Shown one piece after another: positions 49,771 to 59,850 of a DNA stretch of 64,000 bases. The stretch lies in contig VBBQ01000025.1 of assembly GCA_005888755.1 (NCBI GenBank), forward strand, positions 26,256 through 90,255. Direction: 5' to 3'. A program made the translations under genes and the position numbers. The stretch is from Candidatus Bathyarchaeota archaeon. Lineage in GTDB: Archaea > Thermoproteota > Bathyarchaeia > 40CM-2-53-6. How positions within the stretch are numbered: position 1 is the first letter of the stretch; each line of letters begins with the position of its first letter. A model generated the notes under the pieces. The model ran no database searches. It was given only the letters and a program-made list of their open reading frames with translations, and was not told where the DNA came from.

Positions 49771-50394
49771 CTAGGGATGGAGAGGTAGAACCATCGCGTC
49801 CTCAGAAGCTATCAATCCGATCGTGACTAGCTGAGTAACGACTTCCAGTATCTGCATCCGAATTTCAGTAGGTGAAACCTTCTTTTCCACAGCGAGTTCT
49901 GCTGTTAGCTCGTCGATTGTCTTGTTTCCATCGCTTTTCTCCCAGAGGCTGGCGATATCATCGTTTCCGAGGTATCGCGAATTCGCCTCATTGATCAGGA
50001 CAATGGTCCCGTCAGGGTTCTTGGCGATGTGCCCTTTTTTCCTGGGCTTGAAACTTGCAGGGTTGAACTCGATAGTGACTGGTTCCTGGTTCGCTTGTAG
50101 ACGTTCTCGCGCTGCAGCGCTCATTTTGTCAGGGGTCCATGGCGGGTCCCAGACAATGTCGACATCGGCGTGCGTGACACCGGGTATCTTCTCGATAAGT
50201 TCCTTGACCTGGTGACTCAGGTAGGCGCTCGCGGGGCACCCCATGGCCGTGAGGGTCATGCGAACTTTCACAGTATCCTTGTCGATCGCAACGCCATACA
50301 CTAGCCCAAGATCAACAATGTTGACTGGTATCTCCGGGTCGTAACAGTTCCGGAGAACATCCATCACTCGACCGACAGAGAGTTCTTCGCTCAA
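49771..50394 (-). CDS. DUF59 (MIP18/SufT-like) domain fused to a PqqD-like domain
   Basis: 207 residues. Residues 1-100 are a DUF59 Fe-S assembly domain: YDPEIPVNIVDLGLVYGV (18-35) and the TAMGCPAS loop with the conserved cysteine (C53). Residues 115-200 resemble PqqD peptide-binding domains: GTIVLINEANSRYLGNDD, then helices with TIDELTAEL and ILEVVTQLVTIGLI. DUF59 proteins assist Fe-S cluster insertion; PqqD folds bind precursor peptides for radical SAM enzymes. No radical SAM gene is in the window. The pairing is unusual. Confidence 0.78.
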   Translation of the reverse strand: MSEELSVGRVMDVLRNCYDPEIPVNIVDLGLVYGVAIDKDTVKVRMTLTAMGCPASAYLSHQVKELIEKIPGVTHADVDIVWDPPWTPDKMSAAARERLQANQEPVTIEFNPASFKPRKKGHIAKNPDGTIVLINEANSRYLGNDDIASLWEKSDGNKTIDELTAELAVEKKVSPTEIRMQILEVVTQLVTIGLIASEDAMVLPLHP

Positions 50395-51413: not shown

Positions 51414-52205
51414 TCAGAGTATTCTGTTGAGCCTGTCAAAGGCCGCAGGGAGAAGCCGGTTTTCAGCATCGATCAGAGGTCGTAGTTGCCCCGATTTCAA
51501 CAGCCTCGCTATCGCCGTTCCCGTTGCCAGCTTTCCGTGACGCCAGCTCCGAAGAAGAGGACCATACTCTCCTTTCAGACTCTTAGTGACACTCTTTACC
51601 ACACTCTGACCTTTCTCCGACTTGCTCTCCACCTCGACCTCAAAGAGACGAATCTTCTGATCGTCAAAGTCGTAGAGCACCGAGTCCACATCCAGTTCAG
51701 CGAGAGTAGGAGAACCCTCAGGACCTGACGATATGCTTCGAACTTGACGTTGTGTCTCCCGATGCTGGATGGGAACCAAACCCTTCGCCTTCAACACCTC
51801 AATTGGGCCAGAAGGGATTGCCTGATCGACGGGACCAGGGGATTGCGGGGGGAGTTTCAGCTCGGAAACCACTTTTTCAACGGCCTCGGGAGACCACGGA
51901 ATCTCCATTTCGGCCCTGACCATTCCGCCCCAGAGAGTTCGTCTCGGATGAGTCTTCATGGTTATCCAAAGGTCTTGGTTGTCCCTTCGTATTCTCAGAT
52001 TCAGCTTGCGATGCGAGAGAAAATGGTTTGGCGTGTCGAAGTACGTGTCAGAGAGAAGTTTAGTCGTTGCACCAACTAACCGATAATCTCCAACGCTGGT
52101 CTTCTCAGCGATCTTCCTGACAATTTCCTCAGGATGGTCTGACAGTATAAGGAGGATCGATTCGATCTCTCTGCCAAAACCAAGAGCCCGAGGTAGCTTG
52201 ACCAG
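51414..52205 (-). CDS. CYTH-domain protein (triphosphate tunnel-type), uncertain start
   Basis: About 263 residues if CTG at 52205 is used; the frame is open from 52250. No ATG, GTG or TTG lies in frame before 51959, so gene callers would cut off the N-terminus. CYTH signatures are clear: YFDTPNHFLSHRKLNLRIRR (54-73, approx.), the acidic pair AEMEIPW, and DVDSVLYDFDDQ followed by FEVEVESK. The first-strand ExExK is degenerate (EIESI), losing the lysine. CYTH enzymes bind triphosphates or polyphosphate in a tunnel. It is divergent from sixA and begins the polyphosphate-type cluster. Confidence 0.8.
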   Translation of the reverse strand: MVKLPRALGFGREIESILLILSDHPEEIVRKIAEKTSVGDYRLVGATTKLLSDTYFDTPNHFLSHRKLNLRIRRDNQDLWITMKTHPRRTLWGGMVRAEMEIPWSPEAVEKVVSELKLPPQSPGPVDQAIPSGPIEVLKAKGLVPIQHRETQRQVRSISSGPEGSPTLAELDVDSVLYDFDDQKIRLFEVEVESKSEKGQSVVKSVTKSLKGEYGPLLRSWRHGKLATGTAIARLLKSGQLRPLIDAENRLLPAAFDRLNRIL

Positions 52206-52323
52206 CCTAGTCCACTCACCGTTTCGAAGGAGAGGCGTAGTTACTGAACTTTATCTGACTCAACGACACTCGCCACGGGGACAATTGACAGAGTCCAAGA
52301 GAACGGGGAGACAACGGCGCGCA

Positions 52324-52902
52324 TTGTCGAACGACAAAGAGATCGACAGCAATAAGCCAACTTCACCAACACCTGCTCGGACCACATCAAAGACAACACC
52401 TCCTACCAAGATAGACCTATTCATCCTAAGGCATGGAGAAGCAGGCAACCGGATGACAGTTCTCGAGGAAGACTCCAAACGACCCCTGACACCGGAAGGC
52501 CGAGCCGAGATGCGGAAAATAGCCAAGTCATTGAAGGCAGTCGGACTGCAAACCAATCACATCTACACGAGTCCATTGATACGAGCCCGAGAGACCGCCG
52601 AAGTTACTGCAAAGGTTCTCAATATCCCAACGCTGGAAGAGTGGGACGAATTGAAACCAGATGGAAGCAAGGCAACACTCTATCGCAAACTGGAAAGACT
52701 CCAACAAAACTCCACACTAATCCTTGTAGGACACGAACCTTATCTGACTTCTATGATAGGGGAGATTATCGGGGCCACGAGTCCTAAAATTGTTCTGAAA
52801 AAGGGAGGGGTGGCAAAGGTCCGGATAACGTCATTTACTCCTCGGATTTCCGGGGAACTTCGCTGGCTCCTCACACCGAAAATCATCACTAAGATGTCTT
52901 GA
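52324..52902 (+). CDS. SixA-type histidine phosphatase
   Basis: 192 residues from TTG 52324; an earlier in-frame TTG at 52198 overlaps the opposite CYTH gene. After a polar, Thr/Pro-rich N-terminus, the branch 1 histidine phosphatase domain has LFILRHGEAG (catalytic His), SPLIRARETA and VGHEPYL. Length and motifs match SixA, which removes phosphate from histidine-phosphorylated proteins. In archaea related enzymes lie beside CHAD and Ppx genes, as here. Confidence 0.86.
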   Translation: MSNDKEIDSNKPTSPTPARTTSKTTPPTKIDLFILRHGEAGNRMTVLEEDSKRPLTPEGRAEMRKIAKSLKAVGLQTNHIYTSPLIRARETAEVTAKVLNIPTLEEWDELKPDGSKATLYRKLERLQQNSTLILVGHEPYLTSMIGEIIGATSPKIVLKKGGVAKVRITSFTPRISGELRWLLTPKIITKMS

Positions 52903-52971
52903 TAAAGCCAAAACGAATCACTATGACCCCGCCGAAGTGAAACCGAAAACGACGGGCGGTCCTAGCCAAGT

Positions 52972-54435
52972 TTGAAAGTCTCGGTGATAGACTTAGGCTA
53001 CAACTCGCTAAAGCTGGTGAATTACGAAGTTAGGCGGGACAAATCGTTCGTCGCGTATGGACAGCAATCGGTCCTCTCGAAAGTTGGAGAAGGAGTCGAT
53101 CAAACAGGCTTCCTAGGCGACAAACCCATTCGACGTACCCTCAAAACTCTGAAGCAGTTCCGCGCCATCGTGGACCTCGAGCAATCAAACCATGTCCTCC
53201 CAGTTGCCACTAGCGCCGTTAGGGAAGCTGGGAACAGAGAGGAATTCCTCAAACTAGCCTACCAGGAGACTGGGTTCAAGTTCAAAGTTCTATCCGAAAA
53301 AGAAGAAGCAGTATACGCTTTCGAAGGAGCCAAGAGCGCCACCAGCGTTCACGCCGGCTTGTTCTTCGACCTTGGAGGAGGAAGCCTGGAGATAGTCATC
53401 TACTCGGAACCCACGATCAAAAAAATCCTTTCAGTTCCTCTCGGAGGACTAAGGCTAACTGACCTTTACGCAAAACCAGATGGATCTTACACAAAGAAAA
53501 ACTATGCACGGATGAGAAAAAGGATTCTCGAACTCCTGCCGGACAAGAAGCATCTTCCGGCTTCGAAAAGTCTTGACCTGGTTGGGGTCGGAGGCTCCGT
53601 ACGCGCACTCGCAAGGTATGACCAGATGCGCCGCAAGTACCCTCTAAACAAGCTGCACAATTATTCGATGAAAAAGAACGCCGTGGAATCAGTACACCGA
53701 GCCCTACGCAGAATGAGTCTAAGAACAATCAGGAAAAACCCAGCAATAGGCCAAGAGAGAAGCCAATCAATCATCGCCGGGTCCCTGGTAGTTCACCTGC
53801 TGATGGAGAAGATCGGCTTCCGCAAACTCATCGTCAGTACACACGGTCTCAGAGACGGAGTACTCTCAGCCTTCCTCGAAAACCCCAACGCATACCGCCA
53901 AGGACTGCTAGACAAAGTCCTTAGCCGCGAAGGAACGCCAGCACACGCGAAAGCCCCCGCCCAAGAAAAACTGGCCAGGTCCCTCTTATCCCATAGAAAC
54001 CTGACAAAGAGAGAGTTTGCGATACTCTCCGAGGCGCTCGATCACGTATTGCCAGATCTTCCGGTCTACAGTCCGGAGACCCTGTTCTACATCGTATTGG
54101 AGGCTGACAGCATACTGCCGCACCAGGATCAGATCATCCTGGCATTGTCCGTCGCGAGAGCAAATGGAATGAGGAGGACAGATTGGGCTCAGACAAGCTA
54201 CAAGCGGTTACTAGACAAGAAAAGCATGGAGATGGTCAAGAAGGTCTCAGTCCTGATACAACTTGCGCAACTCCAGCAGAAAACGGACATCCATCTATCC
54301 ATGAGGTCTGAGCGCGGCATCCCCCGCCTTCGCATAACCCAAGGTAAGCAACACGTTCCAAAAGTGCTCATGAAGGATATTCTGAGAGACCTCGAAGACC
54401 TTGAAGGCGCATTCAATCTTCAGCTCGCCATGTAG
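52972..54435 (+). CDS. ppx: Ppx/GppA-family exopolyphosphatase
   Basis: 487 residues, TTG start. The ASKHA fold motifs are VIDLGYNSLKL (5-15), the phosphate loop DLGGGSLEIV (about 131-140) and HGLRDGVL near 301. The C-terminal 170 residues are helical, the HD-like extension usual in long Ppx forms. It hydrolyses terminal phosphates from polyphosphate or (p)ppGpp-type molecules; polyphosphate is favoured by its neighbours. CHAD starts 49 bp later on the same strand. Confidence 0.94.
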   Translation: MKVSVIDLGYNSLKLVNYEVRRDKSFVAYGQQSVLSKVGEGVDQTGFLGDKPIRRTLKTLKQFRAIVDLEQSNHVLPVATSAVREAGNREEFLKLAYQETGFKFKVLSEKEEAVYAFEGAKSATSVHAGLFFDLGGGSLEIVIYSEPTIKKILSVPLGGLRLTDLYAKPDGSYTKKNYARMRKRILELLPDKKHLPASKSLDLVGVGGSVRALARYDQMRRKYPLNKLHNYSMKKNAVESVHRALRRMSLRTIRKNPAIGQERSQSIIAGSLVVHLLMEKIGFRKLIVSTHGLRDGVLSAFLENPNAYRQGLLDKVLSREGTPAHAKAPAQEKLARSLLSHRNLTKREFAILSEALDHVLPDLPVYSPETLFYIVLEADSILPHQDQIILALSVARANGMRRTDWAQTSYKRLLDKKSMEMVKKVSVLIQLAQLQQKTDIHLSMRSERGIPRLRITQGKQHVPKVLMKDILRDLEDLEGAFNLQLAM

Positions 54436-54484
54436 CCTCCAAAGAAAACCTAAGTAGGCTCACTTCTCGAACCCAGCCCTTCCC

Positions 54485-55279
54485 TTGATTACTCGCGACT
54501 CCTTCGCGAAGGAATACGACAAATTCCTGAAAGCGCTCACTCGGAGAGTCAAGGCCTACCTCAGAGACCCAAACGCCGAAAACGTCCACCGACTTCGAAC
54601 ATCGACGCGTCGCCTGCAGGCCGCCTTCGCATTGCTTCCCAAGGCGAGCCGGAAGCAGACCAAGGCACAGAAAGCCATGGCCCGCATCAAGGAATTGATG
54701 AAAGTAAACGCTAGTGTGAGAGATCAAGACATTATTCTCTCGAAACTCTCAACGTACAAGCAGAATCCTACATACGAACGGCTCGTAGAGGATTTGAGAA
54801 AATCACGAAAGTCCCACCTGGAGCAAGCGAAAGAGTTAGCATTGGCCGTTCAGAAAAACCCGGGACCTCGCGTAAAACCGAAAGATCTTTCCGAACCCAC
54901 GCTCCAGAAGAGACACGACAAAGTTGTAAGAAAACTAAGCTCGAAGATTACAAGTGAACTCCCGCTAGTAAGGGAAGATCCCTCGAAGGTGGAGCAATTG
55001 CACGTTGTTAGGAGAGACTGTAAACAACTCCGTTATGTTCTAGAAATGAGCGAATTCTCGAGACCACCGAAACCGCTGGTGGCTCTCCGATCTTGGCAAG
55101 ATCTACTTGGTACGATACGCGACCATGATGTGATGATTGAGTATCTTCAGGAACTCAGAAAGTCGCCGGAGATCCTAGTCGCATTAAACACCGAAACTGA
55201 GGGTCGAGGTAACAGCTATCGGAAATTCGTCGAGGCTTCGAGAGAAAATCCAGTTTCCCCGTTTGCTGCCAAGCTTTGA
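54485..55279 (+). CDS. CHAD-domain polyphosphate-binding protein
   Basis: 264 residues from a TTG. Two helical repeats carry the conserved basic H/R faces: NVHRLRTSTRRLQAAF (33-48) and LHVVRRDCKQLRYVLEM (about 172-188), with GTIRDHDVMIEYL following. CHAD domains bind inorganic polyphosphate through such basic surfaces and are habitually coupled with CYTH and Ppx proteins. It is convergent with the VTC-like gene (7 bp between stops). Confidence 0.94.
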   Translation: MITRDSFAKEYDKFLKALTRRVKAYLRDPNAENVHRLRTSTRRLQAAFALLPKASRKQTKAQKAMARIKELMKVNASVRDQDIILSKLSTYKQNPTYERLVEDLRKSRKSHLEQAKELALAVQKNPGPRVKPKDLSEPTLQKRHDKVVRKLSSKITSELPLVREDPSKVEQLHVVRRDCKQLRYVLEMSEFSRPPKPLVALRSWQDLLGTIRDHDVMIEYLQELRKSPEILVALNTETEGRGNSYRKFVEASRENPVSPFAAKL

Positions 55280-55286
55280 GATCGTT

Positions 55287-56561
55287 CTAGTTCGGCAGGC
55301 TCATCAGCCACTGGTTCTTAGTCAGGATCGTGGGTTCGAGTGAGTACTCTTCTATGAGATAGTTGGCCACGGACGCCACATCATTGATACTCCGGGTCTC
55401 AGCCCTCGGAGAAGGTGAGGTCAGAACGTCCTCCACCTCCAGCTGGTAGAGTTCGTGTCCTCGATGCGTGCTTCTATCCATCATCACCGCATACTCTCTG
55501 TTCCCCCCGTCCCGTTCGACCATGAAGTATTTCCTTCTCCTCGTGAGAATCTTGTAGGGCATCTTCAACATGTCCGATTGAATGGGCTCCTCGATCTCCC
55601 GCCTCTTGATCACGTTACCTAGTCGATAGGGGTCCTGCACGACTTGAAAGTCCTCCTTGATCGTCGCGGACCTTGCTTGACCACTGGTTTCAAACCTGAC
55701 GTATTCATGTGTGGGCACCTGGACGTAGTGGTAGAGCCTGCCGGTCTCCATAACGCTGGGGTAGGAGTTGGAGAGTCTGAAGCCTTCGATCTTGCCTTCG
55801 GAAAGATCGGATCTTATTCTGGGGAAAATGTCCTGGTCTTCTGAGTCAAGAGCAAGTTTGGCTTTGATCTCCGTGTTGTGACTTGGTTCTTTGTAGGCCT
55901 CGCCTGATTTCCTTGCTCGGTCCTCGATGAGATTAAAGATTGTAGCCTTCTTGGAAATGCCTTGTTCTGCATTCTCTCTCCTAAGGAGACCGTGAATTTT
56001 TCTGACGAGTGGAGAACTTGTTCTGCCCGGCGGGATCTTTAGCTCCACAATTGCCTTACTCGAGGCCCCAAGCGTTGTCCCTGTGAGTCCCTCGAATGTG
56101 AAGTACCGGACATCTTCATCCATTGTAACCCGTACGCCTCGATCGCTTTCAAGAAAGTGGTTTCTAGAATAACTGGCGGCGGCATAGATGCCCAGTTTGT
56201 GTGGAATCCGGACACGGCCGAGCTGGCGCACTCGTTTTACCCTCGACAAGATTTCTCGGAGGGGCAACATCTCGTTCCGTCGTTTGTACCTGATGAACCG
56301 GCCGTGTTCCGACCGGGTGTTCTTCACCTCGAAGATCCACTTGTCGCCTAGCTTGAGCTTGAATCGTTCCTTGAACGGTTTTTGCTCGTATCTTCTTCCT
56401 CTGATCGAGTAGGTGAATGGGACTTCGTGCTCGTCATTGTTGAAGTACAGTGTTTGGTTGACAGGGTTGGGAAAACTGTTCAGGCTCATTAGCTCGAAGA
56501 GGTTAAGCTTGAATCTCTGAGCCTTGTGAGCATCTATGTAGTACCGAATTTCGGCCCTCAC
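55287..56561 (-). CDS. VTC-type polyphosphate polymerase-like protein with a second CYTH-like half
   Basis: 424 residues from GTG 56561; the frame continues upstream without a normal start. Residues 1-215 resemble the VTC domain: RAEIRYYID (E4), a Lys/Arg-rich strand set FKERFKLKLGDKWIFEVKN (63-81), YSRNHF, RGVRVTMDEDVRYF (141-154) and AIVELKIPPG (170-179). Residues 228-424 appear as another CYTH-like unit starting TEIKAKL and containing YQLEVEDV. VTC enzymes make polyphosphate from ATP. No SPX or membrane domain is present. Confidence 0.72.
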   Translation of the reverse strand: MRAEIRYYIDAHKAQRFKLNLFELMSLNSFPNPVNQTLYFNNDEHEVPFTYSIRGRRYEQKPFKERFKLKLGDKWIFEVKNTRSEHGRFIRYKRRNEMLPLREILSRVKRVRQLGRVRIPHKLGIYAAASYSRNHFLESDRGVRVTMDEDVRYFTFEGLTGTTLGASSKAIVELKIPPGRTSSPLVRKIHGLLRRENAEQGISKKATIFNLIEDRARKSGEAYKEPSHNTEIKAKLALDSEDQDIFPRIRSDLSEGKIEGFRLSNSYPSVMETGRLYHYVQVPTHEYVRFETSGQARSATIKEDFQVVQDPYRLGNVIKRREIEEPIQSDMLKMPYKILTRRRKYFMVERDGGNREYAVMMDRSTHRGHELYQLEVEDVLTSPSPRAETRSINDVASVANYLIEEYSLEPTILTKNQWLMSLPN

Positions 56562-56787
56562 CTGGCTTCGCAGATGTCGCAGCTCCTCAAACCATTGTTT
56601 TCCCGAGAAACGTTGGGAAAGAGGATTTTCAAAACGCGCGCCTCATAAAGTAGCTGAGCCTTTGAACCGGTATTCGCGAGTACCCCCTCTAAACCGATGC
56701 CTCCGTAAACTCCAGAGCCTCCTTTTTGGCTTGTACCTCCCGATTCGCTGCCGGCGGCTGCCCCGATTTCGCGAAGGCCCAGACGAT

Positions 56788-57246
56788 CTACTTGCTGTCT
56801 GGGGTTTGGACTCTCAAAAGTCTCCGAACGGCTCTTCTATCTGGGACAATGCTGAGATTGGAGACATCAGATTCCCAATACACCTGCTCAGCCTCCTTAG
56901 ACTCGATTCTACCGTTCCACTTTTCAACATGGTAATAGTGAATTCTCTGCCTCTCACCGTTTGTTGCCCTAGCCAGACTCTTCTGGACAAGTCTCGCTTT
57001 CTCGACCTCAATTCCAAGCTCTTCCTTCAGCTCTCTTCTCAGAGCATCCTCTAAGTTCTCACCAGTGTCCACGTGCCCTCCGGGGATCTCTACGCATCCC
57101 GGATCGGCCTCATCATTGGCGCGTCTCTTCTCCACGAGGAATGTCCTCCTCTCCATCAATATTCCAGCCACTACGTCGGCGATCTTGCCAGGGGTAGGCT
57201 TCGCTCGTTCGGGCATAGAGGTTTGAGAGTCGACGCTCCAACTCAA
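56788..57246 (-). CDS. Nudix hydrolase
   Basis: 152 residues. The Nudix box GGHVDTGENLEDALRRELKEELG (56-78, shown in two parts: GGHVDTGENLED and RRELKEELG) is complete. After it come the strand KARLVQKSLAR and YYHVEKW. The family hydrolyses nucleoside diphosphates linked to X, and some members act on diphosphoinositol or polyphosphate. The last residues and the next gene's start suggest loose operon structure with the RHH gene upstream. Confidence 0.92.
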   Translation of the reverse strand: MSWSVDSQTSMPERAKPTPGKIADVVAGILMERRTFLVEKRRANDEADPGCVEIPGGHVDTGENLEDALRRELKEELGIEVEKARLVQKSLARATNGERQRIHYYHVEKWNGRIESKEAEQVYWESDVSNLSIVPDRRAVRRLLRVQTPDSK

Positions 57247-58545: not shown

Positions 58546-59850
58546 CTCTCTGACATAAATGGGAGGGTTTGGTTCTTGCCATTGGTTGTTAGCCGTCAAA
58601 TCTGTCTGGCAACGCTATGCTCCAACACGGGACATTCTCGGATTACTGGAAATGTTCAGGAGGATGGTCAACGAATCCATACGGATAGGTCTAGCCTACA
58701 ACGTGTACTCGCTGAGAAACCTTTCCCTGCTCTCGTACAACCAGCTAGCCCAGTTTGATTCTCCCAGCTGCTACAAGCTCTGCGCTATAAGCAGAGCAGC
58801 AGGAATACTAGCCGCTAGGAACAAGTCTGTCAAGAGAGGTTTTCCTACTAAGACCCCGTACGCGGTTAGACAGCAGCTCGTGTCATGCTACGGCTTCAAG
58901 AGGAACAACGAAGGACTTGAGATCCCCGTATCAAGAGGAAAACGTCTCAGCATACCCCTGACCAAGCACACGCTAGATGTCATCTCTCAACCCGGGGTCA
59001 AGGTTCGCTCCTTTACCCTCAGCCGGAACAAATTGAACCTATGCATCTCCCGCGATGTCGTTCTAGTAGAGTGCGCGTCTACCGTCGGCGTAGATCGTAA
59101 TCTTCGCAACCTCACAGCTGGGAACGACCAGCAGATACGCCACTACGACCTCTCAGAGACTGTGAGAATAGCCAGAACTACAGTGCGGATAATCGCTTCT
59201 TTGAGACGAGATGATACCAAGATAAGAACGAGAATCGCGTCGAAGTACGGGGGACGCAGAACCTCGAGAACCGGCCACCTACTCCATAACCCCACAAAAG
59301 CAATTGTCGCGCTAGCGATGCAGCAGAAAGAAGCAATAGTTCTCGAGAACATTGAGGGCATTCGATCTCTCTACCGGAAGGGTAACGGTCAGACCAGAAA
59401 GTATCGGGGCAGAATGAATGGGTGGAGTTTTGGCGAGGCTCAGCGACAGATAGAGTACAAAGCCCGATGGGTCGGACTACCGGTTATCCGTTTGTCTAGG
59501 CGTGAGACCAGAGGTTCCAGTGTGTCTTGTCCGAGATGCGGGGAGAGACTCCAATCGGACAAACGACTGAAACGCAATCTCTGGTGCAGCAACTGTCGAG
59601 TAGTCATGGACCGGGACAGGGTAGCAGCCATTAACCTGGCTCGGCGGGGACGGGTGAGGTTCGCACGTTCCCGGCCTCCCATCATCGAGGCGCAAGGCGG
59701 GGCAGTTGAAGCCGTGAAGGGGAACCCGACGCCTACGGTAATCCCCGGAGTCGATGCTCCGAAGCTAACTCAATCAACAAAGAGTTAGCGGAACCGGTGT
59801 AGGAATTTCTATATCTGCCAGCTTTAGTTTCGCCCATCTCAGAGCTGAAT
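58546..59850 (+). mobile_element. IS605-superfamily element with tnpB only
   Basis: The unit holds tnpB without a Y1 transposase (TnpA). Its left flank from CTCTCTGAC (58546) and its right end near AGAGTTAGCGG (59780) are shared with the deleted copy at 30261-30600, which helps set the limits. The right boundary is approximate. The 3' part of tnpB and the following about 100 bp are where the guide (omega/re) RNA is encoded in related elements. Confidence 0.65.
58559..59788 (+). CDS. tnpB: TnpB RNA-guided nuclease
   Basis: 409 residues, intact. The RuvC residues are D179 (VGVDRNL), E263 (VLENIEG) and D351/D353 (VVMDRDRVAA), with the zinc ribbon C324-P-R-C327 and C343-S-N-C346 between the last two. 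In related IS605 and IS1341 elements TnpB is a guide-RNA-directed DNA endonuclease that maintains the element. No TnpA is linked, so mobility would need help in trans. Confidence 0.95.
   Translation: MGGFGSCHWLLAVKSVWQRYAPTRDILGLLEMFRRMVNESIRIGLAYNVYSLRNLSLLSYNQLAQFDSPSCYKLCAISRAAGILAARNKSVKRGFPTKTPYAVRQQLVSCYGFKRNNEGLEIPVSRGKRLSIPLTKHTLDVISQPGVKVRSFTLSRNKLNLCISRDVVLVECASTVGVDRNLRNLTAGNDQQIRHYDLSETVRIARTTVRIIASLRRDDTKIRTRIASKYGGRRTSRTGHLLHNPTKAIVALAMQQKEAIVLENIEGIRSLYRKGNGQTRKYRGRMNGWSFGEAQRQIEYKARWVGLPVIRLSRRETRGSSVSCPRCGERLQSDKRLKRNLWCSNCRVVMDRDRVAAINLARRGRVRFARSRPPIIEAQGGAVEAVKGNPTPTVIPGVDAPKLTQSTKS

Follow-up and report, generated by a model that had tools for sequence, protein, structure and literature searches.

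We analysed a 64,000-nucleotide stretch of DNA (the window) from a soil Bathyarchaeia genome (G000; 2.0 Mb, 95% complete), in which an earlier note had proposed that six neighbouring genes jointly make, hold and degrade polyphosphate. All six genes are present, and they are arranged around a 424-residue VTC-type protein as follows.

51414..52205, minus strand: CYTH-family triphosphate-tunnel protein of 263 residues with a CTG start (PF01928, 53 bits), divergent from SixA; a peripheral, lineage-specific neighbour.
52198..52902, plus strand: SixA-type histidine phosphatase (TIGR00249, 92 bits versus a cut-off of 74.5), conserved domain from about 52405.
52972..54435, plus strand: Ppx/GppA exopolyphosphatase of 487 residues, TIGR03706-like (PF02541, 148 bits; placed in the Ppx tree described below).
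54485..55279, plus strand: CHAD domain protein of 264 residues, predicted to bind polyphosphate (PF05235, 81 bits versus a gathering score of 25.6).
55287..56561, minus strand: 424-residue VTC-type tunnel protein, predicted polyphosphate polymerase (PF09359; Vtc4p as top fold match; residue alignment).
55896..56561, minus strand: VTC half of the 424-residue protein, residues 1-222 (PF09359, fold match, alignment).
55290..55883, minus strand: second half of the 424-residue protein, residues 227-424, CYTH-like by motif only.
56788..57246, minus strand: Nudix hydrolase of the MutT type (PF00293, 59 bits), lying upstream of the VTC gene; peripheral, adjoining the module only in a close clade.

SixA, Ppx and CHAD are codirectional on the plus strand. 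The VTC gene lies on the opposite strand, convergent with CHAD across a gap of 7 base pairs and with the Nudix gene behind it, while the CYTH gene diverges from SixA. Pfam and NCBIfam models recover the families named in the earlier note (CYTH, SixA/His_Phos_1, Ppx-GppA, CHAD, NUDIX and, weakly but over its cut-off, VTC), whereas two of its gene models need revision. For CYTH, the stated open reading frame of 51414-51959 is too short: the gene reaches about 52205, and only at this full length does it match PF01928 (53 bits versus 23.2, E 4.7e-14). The annotated N-terminus of SixA, a protein with both the RHG and the GHE motif, is probably too long, its conserved domain starting near 52405. The window Ppx scores 244 bits (E 1.7e-72) against TIGR03706, below the curated cut-off of 307 bits; on its PF02541 match we assign it to the broader family, and we withhold the TIGR03706 name. 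CHAD domains bind polyphosphate (PMC6537752).

The 424-residue protein occurs in 12 of the 18 genomes of the window's genus. Every other relative searched lacks it, and a contig scan and a 398-genome sample of the phylum gave no relatives of it that could be placed outside the genus. The ten closest genomes largely have the neighbourhood in common, from a SufT-PqqD gene to a methyltransferase gene. In two divergent genomes, G002 and G012, SixA, Ppx, CHAD and VTC stay together at 40-58% protein identity with other flanks and in another chromosomal setting (the G012 module is divided across contig ends within CHAD), and CYTH and Nudix are gone from beside the module. Because only these four genes stay together in G002 and G012, we take SixA-Ppx-CHAD-VTC as the functional core and the other two as peripheral. 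The gene cluster is real and goes beyond a chance grouping: the synteny that the earlier note suggested checking is conserved for the core in 12 of 18 genus genomes, with identities reaching down to 57%, and the six-gene module of the note contracts to four. Beyond the genus, SixA is conserved beside Ppx across Thermoproteota, where SixA-Ppx with CHAD recurs. We note that in genome G006 the VTC-CYTH gene (L059 7044-8148) is interrupted, with stop codons and its middle missing, as might result from decay or an assembly error.

The first half of the 424-residue protein resembles the tunnel domain of Vtc4. PF09359 matches residues 2-178 (27.8 bits versus a cut-off of 23) and, among 11 orthologues, hits 10 (E as low as 1.4e-8), bearing out the VTC assignment of the earlier note. 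An AlphaFold model built from a shallow alignment has a pLDDT of 47 overall and is better over residues 1-200. Searched with this low-confidence model, Foldseek ranked 3g3t first (E 1.6e-5), and VIA-align with residues 1-219 gave Vtc4p (3g3q) as the best PDB match (Z 12.0, rmsd 3.5, 190 residues aligned), the top seven rows all being Vtc4/VTC entries. Aligned residue by residue with Vtc4 and with seven distant VTC domains of archaeal origin, the protein places E78, K80, R133, R144 and D148 opposite Vtc4 E279, K281, R361, R373 and D377, and E173 falls, by motif, in the strand equivalent to that of Vtc4 E426. Most tunnel residues of Vtc4 are kept in this way, K281, R361 and R373 among them. E78, K80, R133, R144, D148 and E173 are invariant across 11 orthologues. 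In yeast, VTC has been inactivated by mutating R264, R266 and E426 (PMC9911596). The first-strand motif is the VTC-like RxEx(R/K)Y, not ExExK. The 424-residue protein has no Pfam match to SPX and no hydrophobic segment that would indicate a transmembrane helix (maximum KD19 0.66). Searched singly, the protein sequence had no match in the PDB, and hhalign with shuffled-score tests against CYTH and VTC family profiles weakly supported the first half.

The second half received no significant support in the same hhalign and shuffled-score tests, and a dedicated model of it was of low confidence (pLDDT 42), its fold searches giving nothing usable. Its motifs are suggestive only of a CYTH-like domain: the divergent orthologues of G002 and G012 read TEIEAK (ExExK) where the window protein reads TEIKAK, and a C-terminal acidic strand (HELYQLEVED) is present. 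The CYTH-like second half that the earlier note had described is thus unproven, with motifs as its basis and neither a sequence or profile match nor a confident fold.

Comparison across the phylum places the VTC gene in a wider pattern, in which Ppx-CHAD modules in Thermoproteota appear to share a synthase slot, occupied by PPK1 in other Bathyarchaeia (family f11), by VTC-CYTH in the window's genus, or by a pair of thymidylate-kinase-like genes in Sulfolobaceae-like and other families and in genomes G009 and G011. The latter two belong to the window's genus, have no VTC gene and carry two thymidylate-kinase-family genes after Ppx; in G011 CHAD adjoins the pair, and the G009 contig ends within the second kinase. 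The published Sulfolobales arrangement is SixA-PPX-dTMP kinase-CHAD (Fig. 2 of PMC10892726; also PMC6537752). We find the kinase-pair arrangement in three further families of the phylum, f25, f57 and f38. Gene names read by eye from translations place ProC next door at the f38 locus L187, as in PMC10892726, and a short CHAD-like open reading frame after the f38 kinase pair; no CHAD was detected beside the pair in f57. In f57, a SixA-Ppx-kinase module (L181 2192-5970) stands beside genes that read by eye as pst phosphate ABC transporter components. In f11, PPK1 lies beside Ppx and a CHAD fusion protein; at L189 5112-7448 this is a 779-residue fusion of CHAD, a calcineurin-like phosphoesterase and Ppx domain III. 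The PPK1 gene (PP_kinase) was found in none of the 18 genus genomes and in none of the 14 kinase-pair genomes tested. SixA is present in every examined lineage with a kinase pair or VTC.

In a maximum-likelihood tree of Ppx, the VTC type is a single clade (99/96) that sits among kinase-pair rows and has G009 and G011 as its sister (100/100 for the 14). The simplest history is a single exchange of the kinase pair for VTC-CYTH; since the chromosomal site also differs, the genes would have been exchanged inside a module that itself moves, and not swapped in place. Separately, G016 (L068 7317-8024), which has the same neighbours as G011 (L065), lacks SixA, Ppx and both kinases at this site, and a CHAD remnant is left.

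The kinases themselves (L065 4589-6123; L175-L179, L181, L182, L185-L188, L193) are of the P-loop type and belong to SixA-Ppx(-CHAD) modules. The Walker A motif GxDGSGKS(T/S) and a DRY motif are kept in one copy; in the other the Walker A lysine is usually replaced by arginine, and in f38 DR has become DG. We set aside a role as housekeeping dTMP kinase: 13 of 14 pair-bearing genomes tested encode a separate canonical thymidylate kinase with a better family score, the exception being G011 (52% complete), and the VTC-type genomes tested have the canonical enzyme only. PPK2 is structurally near thymidylate kinases, with S. tokodaii 2PLR among the nearest (PMC4748334). Of all solved structures, the active-motif copy is closest to 2PLR (E 2e-104 for that of f38). 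As 2PLR was deposited as a Sulfolobus tokodaii 'probable thymidylate kinase', a polyphosphate-kinase function is still hypothetical, and the closeness of the f38 copy to it may speak for a nucleotide-kinase role. We therefore put forward only tentatively, as an idea somewhat less probable than its negation, that the pair is the missing polyphosphate kinase of Sulfolobus and other Thermoproteota, with one catalytic and one degenerate copy, and that a Vtc4-type polymerase replaced it in the window's genus.

Of the 12 VTC genomes, 11 encode PPK2, against none of the six others (Fisher p 0.0004); the genomes are related, however, and the co-occurrence cannot count as independent support. This PPK2 is a TIGR03709 member that comes closest by score to the ADP-polyphosphate phosphotransferase model, and enzymes of that class chiefly consume polyphosphate. 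Its loci are apart from the module; in the window's own genome it lies near a PhoU-like gene.

Taken together, gene content, conservation, domain and fold matches and phylogeny make it likely, in our assessment, that SixA, Ppx, CHAD and VTC/CYTH constitute a cytosolic polyphosphate module whose VTC-CYTH protein is the polyphosphate polymerase of this lineage. In the mechanism we infer, the VTC half would polymerise polyphosphate from ATP in the cytosol, and the second half, joined to it in one chain, is probably a further tunnel domain, much as Vtc4 is paired with the non-catalytic Vtc2/Vtc3 tunnel. CHAD would hold the polymer, Ppx would degrade it to phosphate, and PPK2, encoded elsewhere, would spend it in charging nucleotides, with SixA as a putative fixed accessory. 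The VTC protein would thereby fill the synthase position held by PPK1 or the kinase pair in related Ppx-CHAD modules. The make-hold-degrade role advanced in the earlier note is in this respect well supported by inference, and neither of the outcomes that the note had named as refuting, loss of synteny in relatives and lack of a VTC model match, occurred. Several points weigh against a polymerase at this locus. The VTC Pfam score is modest, and the profiles of the lineage lack the depth needed to reach significance in profile-profile comparison. The counterpart of Vtc4 R264/R266 is ambiguous, being R54/R56 by topology and K68/K70 by MAFFT, and residues 227-424 gave no Pfam, PDB-sequence or profile-profile match. 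All genomes compared are metagenome-assembled. Many VTC-domain proteins of prokaryotes are not known to have been assayed for activity. Since PPK2 of some species can also make polyphosphate, VTC may not be the sole synthase.

In a different assignment, which we regard as unlikely, the 424-residue protein is a tunnel phosphohydrolase (a tripolyphosphatase or short-chain polyphosphatase), PPK2 makes the polyphosphate, and the module does no more than bind and degrade it. CYTH/TTM tunnels are indeed mostly hydrolases (PMC8233210), and both the CYTH-type ExExK in the second half of the G002 and G012 proteins and the near-constant presence of PPK2 in VTC genomes would fit; however, the N-terminal half is nearest Vtc4, if by a small margin (Z 12.0 versus 10.7 for YgiF and 10.3 for SaTTM), its first strand is of the VTC and not the ExExK type, and PPK2 scores nearest a class that mainly consumes polyphosphate. 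We consider it very improbable, and already disfavoured for the core, that these are unrelated neighbours with phosphate-themed names and no common pathway. Whereas the adjacency of CYTH and Nudix is limited to one close clade and the VTC gene runs the other way, the core remains linked at its low identity in G002 and G012 amid other flanks, SixA-Ppx with CHAD recurs both in Thermoproteota and in the published Sulfolobales clusters (PMC10892726), and G016 is without SixA, Ppx and both kinases together, keeping a CHAD remnant. There is similarly little to recommend the suggestion that SixA marks a unit for histidine-phosphorylation signalling, for which we found no evidence beyond SixA itself and which we think has hardly any chance of being correct. 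SixA is fixed alongside the kinase pair or VTC, but the cluster proteins that were scanned include neither a histidine kinase nor a phosphotransfer domain, and the VTC-genus and kinase-pair genomes lack PPK1, an enzyme that works through a phosphohistidine.

Of the peripheral genes, the small CYTH gene adjoins the module only in the 10-genome close clade. Its start codon is CTG in the window and ATG, GTG or TTG at the same position in relatives, and its ExExK motif reads ExExI, with the lysine lost, in 10 of 10 orthologues. CYTH homologues 37-39% identical to it occur in G012 (L196 7387-8205) and G018 (L198 4282-5082), near a gene that reads by eye as thiL (thiamine-monophosphate kinase), a neighbour hinting at a link to thiamine triphosphate. 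Further out in the window, positions 49771-50394 encode a 207-residue fusion of a SufT-like FeS_assembly_P domain and a PqqD domain, conserved in close relatives, and a TnpB-like gene (58559-59788) stands in the flank; the corresponding interval lacks it in most close relatives, and it is a probable recent insertion. An Rfam search gave no match, and a promoter and terminator scan gave a result at chance level.

Crenarchaea accumulate polyphosphate, and their synthase is not known (PMC7831078, PMC6864096, PMC10892726). The association of SixA, Ppx and CHAD is already known; as far as we searched the open-access literature, what is new is the predicted Vtc4-type polymerase in the module, its fused second half and the nomination of the kinase pair. 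This gives two synthase candidates open to direct testing: VTC-CYTH for soil Bathyarchaeia and, for Sulfolobus, the kinase pair. The Sulfolobales SixA-PPX-dTMP kinase-CHAD cluster is like that of the window in its grouping of SixA, CHAD and a related Ppx, whereas the window cluster has one VTC-CYTH gene in place of two thymidylate-kinase-like genes, with PPK2 elsewhere in the genome. The f11 clusters similarly set a synthase beside CHAD and Ppx, but use PPK1 and have CHAD fused to the phosphoesterase and Ppx domain III. YgiF, a CYTH-CHAD inorganic triphosphatase, likewise links a tunnel domain and CHAD to polyphosphate; in the window the two are separate genes and the tunnel is of the VTC type. 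Single-domain VTC proteins (PF09359) of bacteria and archaea have the VTC domain in common with the window protein; those of other Bathyarchaeia, at about 230-260 residues, are too distant for the window VTC-half profile, and five of their neighbourhoods scanned gave no match to Ppx, SixA or CHAD. The eukaryotic VTC complex (Vtc4 with Vtc2/3 and Vtc1) has in common with the window protein a Vtc4-type tunnel domain and, as we infer, two tunnel-like domains that cooperate. The window protein differs from it in having neither SPX nor a membrane segment, in joining both halves in one 424-residue chain and in being encoded beside Ppx and CHAD. If our interpretation is true, Archaea would possess a functional Vtc4-type polymerase that operates away from the SPX and membrane setting of the eukaryotic enzyme.

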